IMG/VR virus record: IMGVR_UViG_3300034062_007842 | Coordinates: 1 to 24,599 of that record | Strand: one strand, 5' to 3' | DNA length: 24,599 nucleotides | Source: a virus | Part shown: in pieces, positions 4,658-10,607 of the stretch | How the letters are laid out: every line of letters begins with the position of its first letter | Numbering within the stretch: position 1 is the first letter of the stretch | Notes under the pieces: generated by a model | Seen by the model: the letters and a program-made list of their open reading frames with translations, nothing else | Told to the model about the DNA's origin: nothing | Database searches by the model: none | Translations under genes and position numbers: made by a program

Positions 4658-5776
4658 TTATATTACATAAATTTGTCTGGGCATAGCTCTATACTTCATT
4701 TGCTTGTTAAGGTTTTCAGCAAGCAAAGCTTCTTTTTCCATTTGTTTTTCTGGGCGAAGTCTTTCGAGACGAAGTTTGAGTTCTTCTTCCAATTTAGCTT
4801 TTTCATCCTTTGATTCTGTCTGCAAGGATGTATAATCCATTTGCAATTCAGAATCAGGAGTTTTAAGGTTACCAGAGAACTTACCCCTTACTCTTGCTAA
4901 AGTTTCTTTAGCATAAGCGGTAAACCACTTTCTAACCCATTGTTGGGCAGGGACGTTTAAATCCTCCCAACTTAGCTGTTCAACTGGCACGTCCGATGGT
5001 AACTTGATAATGTCTGGGTTGTCCTTCAAACATTTTGCTCTGCTGTCACCATCAACATCGTAATACCAATACCAAACAGCTTTACCTGTGTATTGTGAAT
5101 AGTTACTCCAGGAGAAATTTGACCCAGGGGCATTATACAGGGTCACCAATCTTTTACCGTCTGGTAACCCTGTAATTTTATATGTTAATTGACCACCCAA
5201 GATTCGGTTAAGAATGTTTGCTTCTTGAGCTCGTAGCAAATAGTCAAAACCGCTAAGCATGAAATAGGAACCTGCATTACCTATTTGTGCATAACCAGCT
5301 TGGTTTGCACCTAAACCTAGACCACCGAAACCATAATCGGTAGTTCCAAATAATGCTAAGTTTTGGAATGGTTGGTTTGAAAACCAAAGAAGTTCGTTGA
5401 TTTCACGACCAGCAGGTATTTCGTAGGATTGTGTATTGGCACTTAAAACAAAGTAATCTTTCTTTATAACATATGGTCCAGTAGTTTGCAATCCAACAAT
5501 TTTTGAATATGCGTATGTAAATTGGTCTTCAAGGTTGAATGTTCTAGTAGTCAATGCTCTTGCTACAGATTTTTCACTCATGTTTAAATTGACCAAGTTT
5601 ACCCAGTTTGATTCAATAAGCCAATCAAGAGTATATTGCTCGTAATCTTCTATGGAAAGTTCCATTAAGGAATCAAGCATTTCATCCTCTAATTCAACTG
5701 CTCTAAGTGGTGCACCTAACTGGTGACGGAGCCTAGTATAAATTCTACTTCTTTCGGGTTCTGGTAATACTGCCAT
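4658..5776 (-). CDS. Neck or head-completion-like virion protein (gp13-like candidate)
   Basis: A 372-residue protein. The N-terminus (residues 8-45, RSRIYTRLRHQLGAP, then VELEDEMLDSLMELSIEDYEQYTLDWL) resembles the start of T4-type neck proteins, where a GAP-x5-VEL-x-(D/E) helix-turn segment precedes long helices. The middle (about 125-245) is rich in Gly, Tyr, Asn and Trp. A short charged region at about 320-360 (KDEKAKLEEELKLRLERLR) is a likely coiled coil. No enzyme motif is present. A TATTTATT motif ends 3 bases before the ATG, leaving essentially no leader. It lies downstream of the SOD fusion gene and directly upstream of a small unknown gene. The neck assignment rests on the N-terminal pattern and on other virion genes in the window; a different head or connector role is equally possible. 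Confidence 0.45.
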   Translation of the reverse strand: MAVLPEPERSRIYTRLRHQLGAPLRAVELEDEMLDSLMELSIEDYEQYTLDWLIESNWVNLVNLNMSEKSVARALTTRTFNLEDQFTYAYSKIVGLQTTGPYVIKKDYFVLSANTQSYEIPAGREINELLWFSNQPFQNLALFGTTDYGFGGLGLGANQAGYAQIGNAGSYFMLSGFDYLLRAQEANILNRILGGQLTYKITGLPDGKRLVTLYNAPGSNFSWSNYSQYTGKAVWYWYYDVDGDSRAKCLKDNPDIIKLPSDVPVEQLSWEDLNVPAQQWVRKWFTAYAKETLARVRGKFSGNLKTPDSELQMDYTSLQTESKDEKAKLEEELKLRLERLRPEKQMEKEALLAENLNKQMKYRAMPRQIYVI

Positions 5777-5793: not shown

Positions 5794-7320
5794 TTATCTT
5801 AAATCGTATAGAAGAGATTTTTTCTCGAAAACATAATTACCCATCACAATTTCACCGTTGTTTTCAAAAACAGCAACCTTGTTGCCCTTTACAAATACCA
5901 TAAGGTCAACATTGTATTTTGCAACCTCACCAGTTTTAGTTACGATAAGCTTTCCGTTTTGTTCCAAAATTTCCGCAAACCCTTTAATTTGAGCAGTTTT
6001 TTTCACCCCCTCAATGACAATGTGAGCATCGATTTTCTTCTCTGCATCAATAGCTTTACCAGCACCAGACACTCCGATAACTTTGACATCAGGCAAACTT
6101 TCTTTCAAAGTTCTCAGCGCAGATTTTTCTCTTCTTGAACCAACTTTATCTTTTTCAGTCAGAATTTGCATAACCGCTTGGAACGTTTTGCCATCAGTAT
6201 TGAAGATACCTTTACCAAACTTTTCAATCCAGTTACCAAATCTTTTCATTTCAACAACTTGCTCTCCAGGTGGTTTGTCCGAGAAACTAATTGGCTCCTC
6301 ACCCTCTATCTCCGCAAGTCTTTGATTTACATCCTTCATAATCATACAAAAAGTCGAGTAGTTGGTATTCAAAAAGTTGATTACACTTCTACCCGGTTTT
6401 TCCAAATAATAAATTCCTGGGATTTCACCATTTTCTTTTTTATCGTGATACTTGTCCGGGAAAACTTTTTTCAAAGTCCCGTTAATTGTATTTTTGTAGA
6501 TGTTTCTTGCAGGAACATTCACATTGAAAAGATTTCTAAAGAATTCAATATCAGCTCTACTGCAGTGCTCCGCTTTTGTCTCTTTGAGCACAAGCCCAAC
6601 TTGTTTTGATTCAAGAAGCTTGGTTTCAGTTTTGAGTTCAAACATCTTTTGCACAAAGTCCCAGTTTACTACCGTCCAGAAGTTTTTGATATATTCATCC
6701 CTTTTGTTTTTGTATTTAAGGTAGTAGGCATGCTCCCATAAATCCAAACCAAGAAGTGGGTAACCACCCCCTTCGATGATGTTCATTAGTGGATTGTCTT
6801 GGTTGGGGGTAGACATAATTTTCAGCGTCCCTTTGTTTGTTAGAACGAGCCATACCCATCCGGAACCAAATCTTTGACGAGCCACATCCTCAAAACTTTT
6901 TTTGAACTTTTCATAAGAACCAAAATCTTTTTTAATTTTAATGATGAGCTCTTTGCTTGGTCTTTGTTGAGTGGGGGAAAGCATGTTCCAGAATAGTGCA
7001 TGGTTGAATGCTCCACCTGCGTTGTCTCTAACCCCTTTTGGGTAGCGTGAGATGTTTTTAATTATTTTTTCTAAGTCGTGGTCGCCTTTTCTTTTTTTTA
7101 GCATGGCGTTGAGCTTATCCACATAACCTTTGTAGTGTTTGTTGTAGTGAACATTCATAGTTTCTGAATCTATGAATCTCTTTACGGCTGAGTAACTGTA
7201 AGGGAGTTTTTCTATTCCTATTTTTTTTCCTTCTTGAAGAAGCTCTCTTACTTGTTCTTTCTTTTGTTCGTGAATAATTTGCTCTTGTATTTTATTGACT
7301 TGCTCTTGTATATGTTCCAT
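5794..7320 (-). CDS. Mn-type superoxide dismutase fused to a probable PD-(D/E)XK-like domain
   Basis: A 508-residue protein with three parts. Residues 1-36 are Gln/Glu/Lys-rich and probably coiled coil. Residues about 37-235 are a complete Fe/Mn superoxide dismutase domain. The four metal ligands are present as H58 (HYNKHYKGY), H107 (NHALFW), D193 and H197 (DLWEHAYY). The GSGWVWL segment is at 152-158, and Q174 in NQDNPL is placed as in Mn-type enzymes. Residues about 240-508 are a second region not found in ordinary SODs (about 200 residues). Its last 110 residues show E398, a glycine-rich GAGKAID segment with D425 and D431, then Q444-I-K446 at the end of a beta strand. This arrangement resembles PD-(D/E)XK nucleases with a QxK motif, such as Mrr-like enzymes. 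SOD activity is well supported; the nuclease call is inference. A TATTTATA late-type motif lies 16 bases before the start. Confidence 0.85.
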   Translation of the reverse strand: MEHIQEQVNKIQEQIIHEQKKEQVRELLQEGKKIGIEKLPYSYSAVKRFIDSETMNVHYNKHYKGYVDKLNAMLKKRKGDHDLEKIIKNISRYPKGVRDNAGGAFNHALFWNMLSPTQQRPSKELIIKIKKDFGSYEKFKKSFEDVARQRFGSGWVWLVLTNKGTLKIMSTPNQDNPLMNIIEGGGYPLLGLDLWEHAYYLKYKNKRDEYIKNFWTVVNWDFVQKMFELKTETKLLESKQVGLVLKETKAEHCSRADIEFFRNLFNVNVPARNIYKNTINGTLKKVFPDKYHDKKENGEIPGIYYLEKPGRSVINFLNTNYSTFCMIMKDVNQRLAEIEGEEPISFSDKPPGEQVVEMKRFGNWIEKFGKGIFNTDGKTFQAVMQILTEKDKVGSRREKSALRTLKESLPDVKVIGVSGAGKAIDAEKKIDAHIVIEGVKKTAQIKGFAEILEQNGKLIVTKTGEVAKYNVDLMVFVKGNKVAVFENNGEIVMGNYVFEKKSLLYDLR

Positions 7321-7336: not shown

Positions 7337-7344
7337 TATAAATA
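7337..7344 (-). promoter_or_regulatory. Late-promoter-like motif TATTTATA (minus strand)
   Basis: TATTTATA on the minus strand lies in the 39-base gap between the helicase stop and the SOD fusion start, 16 bases before the ATG. The leader after it is A-rich and contains AATAAG, a word also present in the sheath and tube leaders. It suggests that the SOD fusion is expressed late, separately from the helicase. Confidence 0.5.
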
Positions 7345-7359
7345 ATAGAAACCGACCGA

Positions 7360-10224
7360 TTATTTTTTCCGATTGATACTGTTTAAGATTTCTTCTACAA
7401 TATTTGTCTCGTCTTGGGCTCCATCGCCCATAACGGTGGCTATAATTTTTTTTTTATTGTTTACGATATCATAAATTATCCCTTCCAAGGTGTTTTCATA
7501 CAAAGGATAATAAACGAGAACGTTATTTTTTTGACCATATCTATATGCTCTATCTTCAGCTTGAGCCATATCTGAAGGTAAAAAAGATAAGTCATTCATA
7601 ATAACAGCTTCTGCTGCGGTTAATGTAATTCCAGTTCCAGCTGATTTTATATTACCAACAAAAACTTTAACCTTTTCATCTCCTTGGAATTTGTCCACAG
7701 CTTCTTGTCTTTGAGCTTTACTTGTAGACCCATCCAAACGAACCGCAACCTTTCCAAAGTGATTATAGATGGTCTCCAAAGAGTTTGTAAAATTGCAAAA
7801 GATAATTACCTTCTTACCTTGCTCAATGATATTTTCAGCAAGTTCAATGGTGTGCTGCGTTTTTTCATCAGCAATCAGCTGACGCACTTGAATCAGTTTG
7901 GTAAATTGAATTGAAAGGTTTTTGCTTTCCTCTGGGTTCTTTTCATACCAGTTGTAGTATTCACCCATAAGCTCCTCATAGTTTTTGGAGCGCAATCTCA
8001 AATAAACTGGGGTAATAATCTTTTCTGGTAAATCCAATACATCATCTTTTAGACGTCTAAGGATTGTTGCTCCAGTGCGGTCCCGAAGTTCTTCCAAGTT
8101 AGATGCTCCCATTACATTCCACACTTTTCTTGGACCAACTCTAAATTGGTAGCCCGCACAATATCTTATAACATAAGCCATCCAGTTTTTTGCAACTGGT
8201 GAATCAACCAACGACAAAAGATTGAAATAATTGATAGGACGTGAGGTCATAGGGGTGCCCGTCAATAACCAAAGTCTGTCAACATTTTTTACTAGGTCGT
8301 TGATAAGTTTTGTTCTTTGAGCTTGTACGTTTTGAATGTAATGTGCCTCATCAATAATCACCAAATCAAACTTTGACTTTAACATTACCGAGTTACTGTG
8401 GTCTTTGGCATCATGAAAATTTTTAATGATGTCGTAATTCATCACCACAATCTCCGCATCTTCGGAATAATTTTTTCCCTCACAAACATAACTACTCTTG
8501 TTGCTGTAGAGTTGGTATTCCCTTTGCCAGTTGATTTTCAGTGATGCTGGACAGATGATTAAAATCTTCTTGGCTCCGGTCTCTAATGATGCAATAATTG
8601 TCGATGTGGTGTTATGTGTAACAATGCAATGTTCAGTTACATATAACTTATCAGGAGAATCCACCGATATACAAACACTATCTTCAAAACCAACTTTCTC
8701 AATATTTTTAATATACCTACCTGTTGGGTATTTTTTTGGTTCAATATATTTATTTGCCTTTCTTTTTAATTTAAATGGATTCATTCCTTTTGGTAATTTA
8801 ATATTAACCCGATAGGATAACTTACCTTTCTTTTTTTCACCATTATAAGTATAAGTTGGAATACGAGTTTTTACTCTTGCAATACCACCTAATGTTTGTA
8901 CAATTTCAACAACGTCATCACATAGTTGTTTTGAAATGGTGCTAAATTCAGTTCCTAAAAACTTTCCACCACCATTAAACATACAATGACCGTCAGTGTC
9001 CATTAGTCCTTGTAGTATTGACAGTCTATTTTCAACTGATGAATATTTGTATATTTCTGGAATAAATTTGTTATGCGAACGTGTTTCGTTTAGTTTGAGT
9101 CCGTTCAACACACCCCTACCGATTAATTTATTTCCTTTTCTCTGATTTTTAATTTTTTTATTTTCATTTAAACCAAAACTATCAAATAGTTCATCATAAT
9201 CGTCACAGTGTACTGTAAAAACACAGGATGATTTATTTATGTGTCCATCCCCTAAAATCAATCCTAAAAAATAAGGATTAATCGGAAGATTGTCGTTACG
9301 TTCAAATTGAATCGGTTCTACAATAGGAATTTGCCATTTATTATTACTATTTGGTGATTTGTAATAAGTTTCAATCTCATATTCCTTATCTTTATTATAA
9401 TCAATACCTTTAACTTTAATTTTACCACCCTCATACATTTGCTTTGTCGAAAGAACTAAAGATTTTTTTCGTCTACCGTTTTTCGTGTTTTTACCATAAT
9501 TAGGTGATAAAACTGACCATAAATGTTCGTCTCCCGTTAAAATTGAAAATCCATCATTAAATGTTATTCTATAAGTTTCTTTTACACCTTGTGGAAATAC
9601 ACCAATCACATTATGAGGTTTGCCATCACTACCAATAACCTTATCCCCAACTTTAATATCCCCAATATTTTTTCTACCAAATGGGGTAAATATCCTGTTA
9701 TTTTTTGGTTCGCATTTCCCGAGTCCCATATCATCAGCAAGAATATATTTTTTGTTTTTCAACAATTCTTCAATGGCGGTCTTCTGGTGGTCAAGTGGGG
9801 GGCGATGTGAATACTTTGAATAATCCACCTCGGCAATTTCAACTTTGTTGTCCTTAATGATTGCTGCTTTTGGAATCCACAAGTCTGAAAGTTCATCGTT
9901 TTCAAAGAACTTACCCCAGATATGGTATGCTTTGTCTTTTTCTGTTAAAAGTTTTTCAATCCACATCTTTTCTGGGATGTTCATCAAAAATCTTTCATCG
10001 GCAATTTTGTTTGCAAAGTAGGTGTCAAGAACTACCCACTTCTTAGCTACCATAGGAACTTTATCGTGGTTTAATAAAATGTATTCAGCTTGACTTCTTG
10101 TCGGATAAAACTTTGAGTTTTTTTCCAGCTTGAGTTTTAAACCCAAAAGATAATTGTTTGCACCAGCATAATTTTCTAACAACAAAAGTGTTTTAGATTC
10201 AATTGGTAATTCAGGACTCATCAT
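7360..10224 (-). CDS. SNF2-family DNA helicase/translocase interrupted by an intein
   Basis: The precursor is 954 residues; the mature protein after splicing would be 586. The extein is a superfamily 2 ATPase of the SNF2 (SMARCAL1-like) type. It has motif I GLGKT split by the intein at K170/T539, motif II DEAH at 625-628, motif III LTGTP at 654-658, SAGTGITLT at 861-869 and motif VI QAEDRAYRYGQ at 888-898. Such enzymes move along or remodel DNA. In T4-like phages, SF2 helicases such as UvsW act in recombination, replication restart and fork remodelling, so a similar nuclear role is likely but not shown. Residues 1-140 are a phage-specific N-terminal region. The start overlaps the stop of the SET gene as ATGA, which indicates coupling. 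A second ATG follows immediately. Confidence 0.95.
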   Translation of the reverse strand: MMSPELPIESKTLLLLENYAGANNYLLGLKLKLEKNSKFYPTRSQAEYILLNHDKVPMVAKKWVVLDTYFANKIADERFLMNIPEKMWIEKLLTEKDKAYHIWGKFFENDELSDLWIPKAAIIKDNKVEIAEVDYSKYSHRPPLDHQKTAIEELLKNKKYILADDMGLGKCEPKNNRIFTPFGRKNIGDIKVGDKVIGSDGKPHNVIGVFPQGVKETYRITFNDGFSILTGDEHLWSVLSPNYGKNTKNGRRKKSLVLSTKQMYEGGKIKVKGIDYNKDKEYEIETYYKSPNSNNKWQIPIVEPIQFERNDNLPINPYFLGLILGDGHINKSSCVFTVHCDDYDELFDSFGLNENKKIKNQRKGNKLIGRGVLNGLKLNETRSHNKFIPEIYKYSSVENRLSILQGLMDTDGHCMFNGGGKFLGTEFSTISKQLCDDVVEIVQTLGGIARVKTRIPTYTYNGEKKKGKLSYRVNIKLPKGMNPFKLKRKANKYIEPKKYPTGRYIKNIEKVGFEDSVCISVDSPDKLYVTEHCIVTHNTTSTIIASLETGAKKILIICPASLKINWQREYQLYSNKSSYVCEGKNYSEDAEIVVMNYDIIKNFHDAKDHSNSVMLKSKFDLVIIDEAHYIQNVQAQRTKLINDLVKNVDRLWLLTGTPMTSRPINYFNLLSLVDSPVAKNWMAYVIRYCAGYQFRVGPRKVWNVMGASNLEELRDRTGATILRRLKDDVLDLPEKIITPVYLRLRSKNYEELMGEYYNWYEKNPEESKNLSIQFTKLIQVRQLIADEKTQHTIELAENIIEQGKKVIIFCNFTNSLETIYNHFGKVAVRLDGSTSKAQRQEAVDKFQGDEKVKVFVGNIKSAGTGITLTAAEAVIMNDLSFLPSDMAQAEDRAYRYGQKNNVLVYYPLYENTLEGIIYDIVNNKKKIIATVMGDGAQDETNIVEEILNSINRKK
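8611..9714 (-). mobile_element. Intein with LAGLIDADG homing endonuclease domain in the helicase Walker A motif
   Basis: The intein is 368 residues, from C171 to N538 of the helicase precursor. Splicing residues are present: C at position 1, a block B-like LTGDEHLW with T230 and H234, the C-terminal THN with H537 and N538, and T539 as the +1 extein residue. Removing it restores an unbroken DDMGLGKTTST Walker A motif. The endonuclease has two LAGLIDADG helices, FLGLILGDGH (319-328, D326) and LQGLMDTDG (404-412, D411). Both catalytic Asp are kept, so it may still be active for homing. The DNA of the intein looks more AT-rich than the flanking extein, consistent with separate acquisition. The insertion point, a catalytic loop that cannot vary, is typical of inteins. 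The boundaries are exact if splicing is canonical. Confidence 0.96.
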
Positions 10225-10607
10225 TTAACTTGAACGTATTTTCTGGAGCTCCAATACTCCTCCCCCCCGTAATCAACAAATATTTCTTCTCCCTTTTTAA
10301 TATTTTTTGTTGAAACGAAATCCACGGTAAAGGTTTTTTTATTGCTGAAAAAATAACTATTTGGTTCATTAGAATGATTATAAAATGAACCATAACCCAT
10401 TGCCATAACGTAAAACAATCTTTTTTCGTTTTCTGTCCACCAAAATCTGAAATCTGCAAAGAGTTCATTTTTTTCATCAATATCAAGCCGGAGCAAGGGA
10501 CATTTTTCAATTATTTCCCCCTGGAGAATATCCTGTGCGGCAAATACACCAAGCCCATGAATTGGACTTGGATGTACAAAAACTTTAGGTGGGTTTTTAT
10601 CAAACAT
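10221..10607 (-). CDS. SET-domain protein, putative lysine methyltransferase
   Basis: A 128-residue single-domain protein with the SET signature. It has the GxG motif in HGLGVFAA (G18, G20), the NH-x-x-x-PN motif in SFYNHSNEPNSYF (N77, H78, P82, N83), and GEEIFVDYG (107-114) with the near-invariant Asp-Tyr (D112, Y113). These residues bind S-adenosylmethionine and shape the lysine channel and the pseudoknot. The length fits minimal SET proteins of bacteria and phages; there is no pre-SET or cysteine-rich post-SET region. The target is unknown and could be a host or phage protein. Its stop overlaps the helicase start (ATGA), so the two form an operon. A candidate Bacteroidota-type promoter lies just upstream and it lacks the late-type motif in the right orientation, so it may be expressed earlier than the virion genes. 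Confidence 0.88.
   Translation of the reverse strand: MFDKNPPKVFVHPSPIHGLGVFAAQDILQGEIIEKCPLLRLDIDEKNELFADFRFWWTENEKRLFYVMAMGYGSFYNHSNEPNSYFFSNKKTFTVDFVSTKNIKKGEEIFVDYGGEEYWSSRKYVQVK

Follow-up and report, generated by a model that had tools for sequence, protein, structure and literature searches.

A late-type phage gene joining superoxide dismutase to a predicted PD-(D/E)XK nuclease-like domain beside the neck gene of large T4-type phages

A protein in which a complete Fe/Mn-type superoxide dismutase (SOD) precedes a domain with a predicted PD-(D/E)XK fold was found in the 24,599-nucleotide stretch analysed here (the window) and, as judged from the alignments, is no one-off: its gene is a conserved one in a widespread group of large phages. 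Our best explanation, put forward tentatively, is a protein that is expressed late, directed to the head and possibly split by a protease into an SOD and a nuclease. The features concerned, all on the minus strand, are as follows.

7360..10224 (-), SNF2-family helicase upstream, with intein (PF00176 2.7e-23; PHROG 62; synteny)
7337..7345 (-), TTATTTATA, late-promoter-like motif, containing TATTTATA at 7344-7337
5794..7320 (-), SOD-nuclease fusion gene, 508 aa, ATG start (ORF and alignments)
7216..7320 (-), N-terminal leader, residues 1-35, with the E30 site (7231-7233) at its end
6637..7215 (-), Fe/Mn-type SOD domain, residues 36-228 (profile and PDB matches, invariant residues)
6562..6636 (-), linker joining the SOD and nuclease parts, residues 229-253; its conserved E247 (6580-6582) is a proposed head-protease site
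6196..6561 (-), mainly helical domain, residues 254-375 (model; S312, N315 and T319 invariant)
5797..6195 (-), predicted PD-(D/E)XK-fold domain, residues 376-508, with E398, D425, D431, Q444-x-K446 and Y469 (conservation and model)
4658..5776 (-), gp13-like neck protein, head-tail adaptor Ad2 (PHROG 211, 6.7e-11; synteny)

The reading frame at 5794-7320 (-) is a real gene. IMG/VR was scanned with the whole protein (best 80 of 483 related stretches, of which 76 were full-length and were aligned with the window) and with C-terminal profiles (best 80 of 423, best 80 of 529 and best 80 of 402). A set of 156 distinct full-length fusions, counting in the window and excluding pieces shorter than 480 residues, was drawn from 271 fusion ORFs that included overlapping loci; the two-domain order noticed in the window is thus widely repeated in other phages, with the nuclease part missing or replaced in some relatives. 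Over three pairs the dN/dS ratio was 0.02-0.10 in the leader, in the SOD and in the nuclease; for the middle region it was 0.03 and 0.07 in two pairs and saturated in the third. The gene is under strong purifying selection.

Profile searches placed Sod_Fe_N (PF00081) at residues 36-115 (8.9e-20) and Sod_Fe_C (PF02777) at residues 121-225 (1.4e-40), and the best solved relatives of the fusion protein were SODs, mostly Mn or Mn/Fe enzymes (best E 4.7e-59). The four metal ligands and the Mn-type glutamine that the earlier note had read from the sequence (H58, H107, D193, H197 and Q174) proved to be as described and were invariant in 24/24 non-redundant relatives and 156/156 fusions, and H62, Y66, W155, W195, E196 and Y200 were likewise kept in all 156. 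By its sequence the domain is a complete Fe/Mn-type superoxide dismutase; the use of manganese is no more than suggested by Q174 and by the two glycines before H107. The nearest cellular SOD relatives were 45-56% identical to it. Of 236 cellular SOD loci the best 80 were read by record title, and 70 of these titles name Bacteroidota.

No convincing Pfam, PHROG or PDB sequence-family match was obtained for the C-terminal 280 residues, the weak Pfam matches among members being RE_EcoO109I (0.017) and DUF6602 (0.012). The pattern E398 / D425-D431 / Q444-x-K446, from which the earlier note had argued for a nuclease, was nevertheless invariant at all five positions in the 24 non-redundant relatives, in the 156 fusions and in a wider set of 70 domains with 19-81% identity to the window (set A4), so that the conservation of D431, Q444 and K446 in homologues was borne out; the five positions were also kept in a set including L239, which belongs to a 735-kb phage and is a divergent homologue. 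All five are among the eight of 118 positions in residues 391-508 that are invariant in the 156 fusions (G394, E398, G421, D425, D431, Q444, K446 and Y469), which places the motif far beyond chance. Among 50,697 phage records nothing better than E 3 was found with the window's C-terminal part, and a standalone nuclease relative used as query retrieved the same 735-kb phage in two records (E 1e-7). A profile scan of genome contigs, a weak one made with two peptide patterns only, found no cellular relatives of the nuclease.

An AlphaFold2 model of residues 230-508 was built from 70 aligned rows (pLDDT 86.5, pTM 0.80), the single-sequence AlphaFold model of the whole protein having a pLDDT of 34. 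Residues 254-375 are mostly helical in the former, and no VIA row obtained with it pointed to a clear fold for them. Two cysteines, C253 (6562-6564, -) and C325 (6346-6348, -), are invariant in the 156 fusions and might serve in redox reactions or in metal binding. Residues 378-508 form a long helix carrying E398, a strand, a strand at 432-436 following D431, a strand at 439-447 bearing Q444 and K446, and further strands; DSSP assigns no helix between core strands three and four, where one is usual. The alpha-beta-beta-beta-alpha-beta core named in the earlier note was therefore recovered in part, namely as alpha-beta-beta-beta with more strands to follow and without that helix. Foldseek against the PDB returned no match with E <0.001 for the C-terminal model, its top rank going to I-Ssp6803I (E 1.4e-3, probability 1.00) and its fifth to Hjc (0.97), and VIA gave Hjc (Z 7.9, 3.6 Å over 101 residues), I-Ssp6803I (Z 7.2, 3.2 Å over 98), NhoI (7.2), SPARDA (7.0), DpnI (5.6) and RecU (5.3). 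Every one of VIA rows 1-29 is an enzyme that we take to be PD-(D/E)XK, and the first row that we take to be unrelated has a Z of 4.3. Since a Z below 8 can reflect a common arrangement, the assignment rests on the fold together with the invariant residues: the domain is predicted to have the PD-(D/E)XK fold, with I-Ssp6803I and the Hjc resolvases as the nearest folds found. The PD-(D/E)XK part of the earlier proposal of an Mrr-type enzyme holds up in conservation and in the predicted structure. Kinship with Mrr, which may yet exist, was not found, Mrr being absent among the Pfam matches at E <=10 for the window's part and at E <=1 for 14 members, in searches whose filters drop weak matches. 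The model and the conserved residues make it likely that the domain is an active nuclease; branched or packaged DNA is a possible substrate, suggested with less assurance. No likeness to T4 gp2 or gp4 was seen when single T4 sequences were compared with the domain profile (hhalign probability 0.4 percent for gp2 and 0.2 percent for gp4); searches of nine long, possibly incomplete contigs for these head-completion genes found gp4 in one and gp2 in none, T4 being positive for both.

Among the loci listed, the gene order in the viewable fusion loci was judged to be conserved and runs SNF2 helicase, SOD-nuclease, gp13-like neck protein, small gene and convergent DNA polymerase B, the neck gene lying 17 nt downstream of the fusion gene on the same strand. 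In the window's SNF2 helicase (954 aa) the Walker A region is interrupted by an insert that resembles an intein and matches Hint and LAGLIDADG, the SNF2 gene of L002, L008, L037 and L141 encoding 585-613 aa. A small SET-domain protein (10221-10607, -; 1.3e-15) is encoded two genes upstream of the fusion, and in the 735-kb phage (L239, 5278-5817, -) a SET homologue adjoins the divergent nuclease homologue.

Because earlier loci had been fetched with the nuclease or the fusion, a scan independent of either was run with the neck protein, and its best 80 of 558 loci were taken as a sample. All 80 contained SNF2, and 46 contained the fusion, 32 an SOD without the nuclease and two the nuclease without an SOD, so that an SOD lay beside the neck gene in 78/80. 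Fifteen of the 32 loci consisted of leader and SOD (ORFs of 239-268 aa), and the other 17 (L445, L465, L471, L481 and 13 further loci) were HEXXH-leader-SOD fusions at the same locus, with about 125 extra N-terminal residues in which HExxHE is followed further on by an acidic stretch, an arrangement known from zinc peptidases; the Pfam result for this domain was a weak match to DUF6055 (0.003) alone, in two of four scanned. The SOD motifs were intact in 28 of the 32 under a strict pattern. When whole contigs were searched, a nuclease relative was absent from nine of ten SOD-only contigs (63-214 kb) and a distant one was present in the tenth; of five standalone-nuclease contigs (160-318 kb), four had no SOD elsewhere and the fifth had a 59-residue match (E 3e-4). 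These loci and contigs identify the SOD as the steadier partner and the second enzyme as the one that varies. A converse account, with a constant nuclease and an accessory SOD lost several times, was dropped after the neck-based scan as a product of ascertainment bias.

Of 80 nuclease ORFs viewed with their surroundings, 79 carried an SOD, and the remaining one, L407, reads as frame-shifted. Standalone nucleases (L141, L149 and L200, for example) fill the same slot as the fusion, many of them keeping a fusion-like leader as judged by eye, and in L195 the SOD and the nuclease are two separate genes in that slot, which indicates that the covalent joint is not indispensable. In the L197 group the first SOD residues (NEMKKIEIEKL) are fused to the post-SOD linker; as the SOD start and the linker are both retained, the SOD there was excised from a fusion. 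In a neck-protein tree (58 rows) SOD-less lineages were scattered among fused ones (five changes, with L195 and L407 treated as not fused), and two changes were needed on a tree of the nuclease (68 rows). The neck protein of L195 clusters with those of fused phages and its nuclease with standalone ones, and L195 looks like a nuclease swap. Further copies of the module occur: the fusion-bearing contig of L425 (G025, 199 kb) has two more, distant nuclease relatives at 117921-118589 (2.7e-27) and 130912-131421 (3.5e-8), and L225 (1428-2915, -), like L213, encodes a 496-aa protein that starts with a zinc-ribbon-like segment and also has a domain similar to gp82 of phage L5 (PF25735, 5.7e-29) and a divergent nuclease-module copy, two genes from the SOD fusion.

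The start of TTATTTATA was found 19-30 nt ahead of the first ATG in 43/51 SOD-bearing representatives, against a background of 0.007 per 120 nt, and the motif was found upstream of 0/62 SNF2, 0/65 neck, 0/41 polB and 0/19 standalone nuclease genes. At the corresponding place, 13/19 standalone nuclease genes have ATATTTAT and 4/19 have TAnnTTTG instead, both counted by eye, the latter being the Bacteroidota promoter. The T4 late promoter is TATAAATA, and this sequence stands upstream of the sheath gene in 33/54. The only other TATTTATA sites in the window, at 16712 and 18202 (+), immediately precede the tail tube gene and the gene at 18225. A gp55-like sigma factor was matched weakly in 5/9 long contigs (E 2.5e-5 to 6e-4; T4 control 2.5e-70). 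The late expression that the earlier note had proposed from the upstream motif and the co-directional virion genes is well supported by the motif counts and the gp55-like factor, and we regard it as highly likely. The phages are probably large T4-type phages infecting Bacteroidota, late expression in such a host being likely given the motif, the gp55-like factor and the Bacteroidota SOD relatives.

Candidate head-protease sites were found at two places in the fusion. At E247 the pattern [hydrophobic]2-x-E is present in 156/156 fusions, with A, G, S or T next in 142, and the full pattern occurs in at most 17/156 at any other position; E237 meets the looser hydrophobic-x-E-[AGST] in 135/156, so E247 is not the sole candidate of its kind, and it lies within a low-confidence stretch of the AlphaFold2 model. 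At E30, hydrophobic-hydrophobic-x-E is present in 139/156 with M next in 135, the following residue being mostly M or I in contrast to head sites. An E247-type site is kept in 19/22 distinct standalone nuclease N termini, excluding the frame-shifted L407 and the Zn-ribbon paralogues, and is missing in L190, L195 and L216. Homologues of gp17, gp20, gp21 and gp23 were present in both contigs examined whole, where gp23 reads F/YLINE|ASS, the corresponding T4 site being FLTE|AEI. Head-type sites over all N termini numbered 23 against 12.3 expected and 18 against 13.0 expected, a modest enrichment. Unrelated small proteins in G005 and G001 (behind L072 and L008) begin with a common leader such as M-K-x-h-x-LTESDLxRIIxRVIxE, in three and three genes against 0.13 and 0.07 expected for a pattern chosen after the sequences had been viewed; this leader is possibly a targeting signal. 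According to two papers on T4 (PMC9026906, PMC5694885), cargo, which can include foreign nucleases, is loaded by means of an N-terminal targeting sequence, and the cleavage by gp21 follows a glutamate.

The head genes, the E247 site and the T4 cargo route together favour a head-directed two-enzyme precursor. The TATTTATA late promoter would drive the fusion gene, probably together with the neck gene. The leader would bring the protein to the assembling head, a destination to which we give slightly less than even weight. A cut by the head protease after E247, which we hold to be somewhat less likely still, would free the SOD and the nuclease inside or beside the capsid; a cut after E30 is less sure. 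The SOD half would clear superoxide as an Mn (or Fe) enzyme and, having a dimer-forming fold, would pair the C-terminal domains, each of which would cut DNA with a metal held by D431 and Q444 and with the help of K446 and E398. The E247 site lends indirect support to packaging, and the HEXXH domain that stands ahead of the leader in 17/80 neck-sampled loci (best 80 of 558) ill suits an N-terminal targeting signal. A broader form of the head-cargo idea, which we think rather unlikely, would make the leader-SOD unit a cargo platform that takes the SOD into the capsids of large T4-type phages together with an exchangeable enzyme partner: the nuclease in one lineage, an HEXXH-type domain in a second, and no partner at all in a further one. 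Released by the head protease and delivered by the virion, these would bring to the next infection immediate protection from superoxide along with a DNA- or protein-directed attack.

The main rival is a cytoplasmic late junction resolvase or debranching enzyme that acts before packaging and replaces T4 endonuclease VII, the fused SOD being dimerising or protective and nothing being packaged. It is in keeping with Hjc as the best VIA match (Z 7.9), with the neighbouring helicase gene and with the absence of the endonuclease VII, RuvC, RusA and Hjc families from 9/9 long contigs (controls positive; contigs possibly incomplete), the Hjc profile PF01870 being found in 0/9 such contigs with a fusion gene (controls positive 4/14). 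The nuclease is, however, missing from the locus in 32/80 neck-sampled loci (best 80 of 558) and from the rest of 9/10 searched SOD-only contigs, themselves possibly incomplete, so that the group does not have it as a constant resolvase, and the E247 site is left unexplained; we find this reading doubtful.

An ordinary late anti-oxidant SOD to which a mobile (homing-type) or hitch-hiking nuclease has become fused and is carried along would accord with the homing enzyme I-Ssp6803I as the top Foldseek match, with those same 32 loci and with the resemblance of L195 to a nuclease swap. We consider it improbable, as the nuclease occupies the same slot under strong purifying selection across a wide divergence, persists as the sole product where the SOD is lost, and shows no intron in its gene. 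Least probable of all, and by our estimate very improbable, is a C-terminal domain that is nuclease-folded yet non-catalytic and binds DNA or a head protein to anchor the SOD: a Q where an acidic residue is usual and the missing second core helix in the model would fit, but none of the five catalytic positions varies in the 156 fusions or in A4, and QxK occurs in active enzymes such as I-Ssp6803I. The head-directed precursor is accordingly kept as the preferred, tentative reading.

It is usual to class phage SODs among the metabolic helper genes, and superoxide dismutases are named among the anti-oxidant genes of freshwater phages by Kavagutti 2019 (PMC6802176), in whose main text the word 'fusion' is absent. 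Here the SOD is nearly fixed beside the neck gene, with a late-type motif and exchangeable enzyme partners, and if it is head cargo the removal of superoxide would belong to the assembly of the particle or to the onset of infection. The fusion also adds a QxK nuclease-like family that was unmatched here by Pfam, PHROGs and PDB sequences. The earlier note had known of no described phage protein joining the two activities, and searches of papers, with subscription papers and preprints outside their scope, agreed in finding no description of an SOD-nuclease fusion.

Compared with known systems, the fusion has the whole domain, the ligands and the second shell of bacterial Mn and Mn/Fe SODs (e.g. 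PDB 3tjt), to which it adds a leader in front and 280 residues behind. Stand-alone Fe/Mn SODs like that of the fusion are carried in the large genomes of PA5oct-like Pseudomonas phages and Vibrio phage 2.275.O, with 27-29% identity and an alignment limited to residues 24-241. I-Ssp6803I is an active QxK variant and an intron-borne homing endonuclease that is not fused; its structure (PDB 2ost) has the PD-(D/E)XK fold predicted for the C-terminal domain, a likeness not accompanied by sequence similarity in PDB sequence searches. The archaeal Holliday junction resolvase Hjc (PDB 2wcw) likewise has that predicted fold, the fusion differing in the helical domain and SOD ahead of its nuclease. Internal head proteins of T4 that bear a capsid targeting sequence are comparable in the proposed route and in the type of the candidate cut site, the fusion's leader being of other sequence and length and its packaging being putative. 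Closest in architecture is UniProt A0A6J5L953 (501 aa, uncultured Caudovirales phage), found in BFVD, whose predicted structure matches the entire C-terminal model with a query-based TM of 0.86 at 27% identity and which is almost certainly the same fusion; it is deposited as 'superoxide dismutase', a name covering the SOD alone, under which other such fusions can hide.
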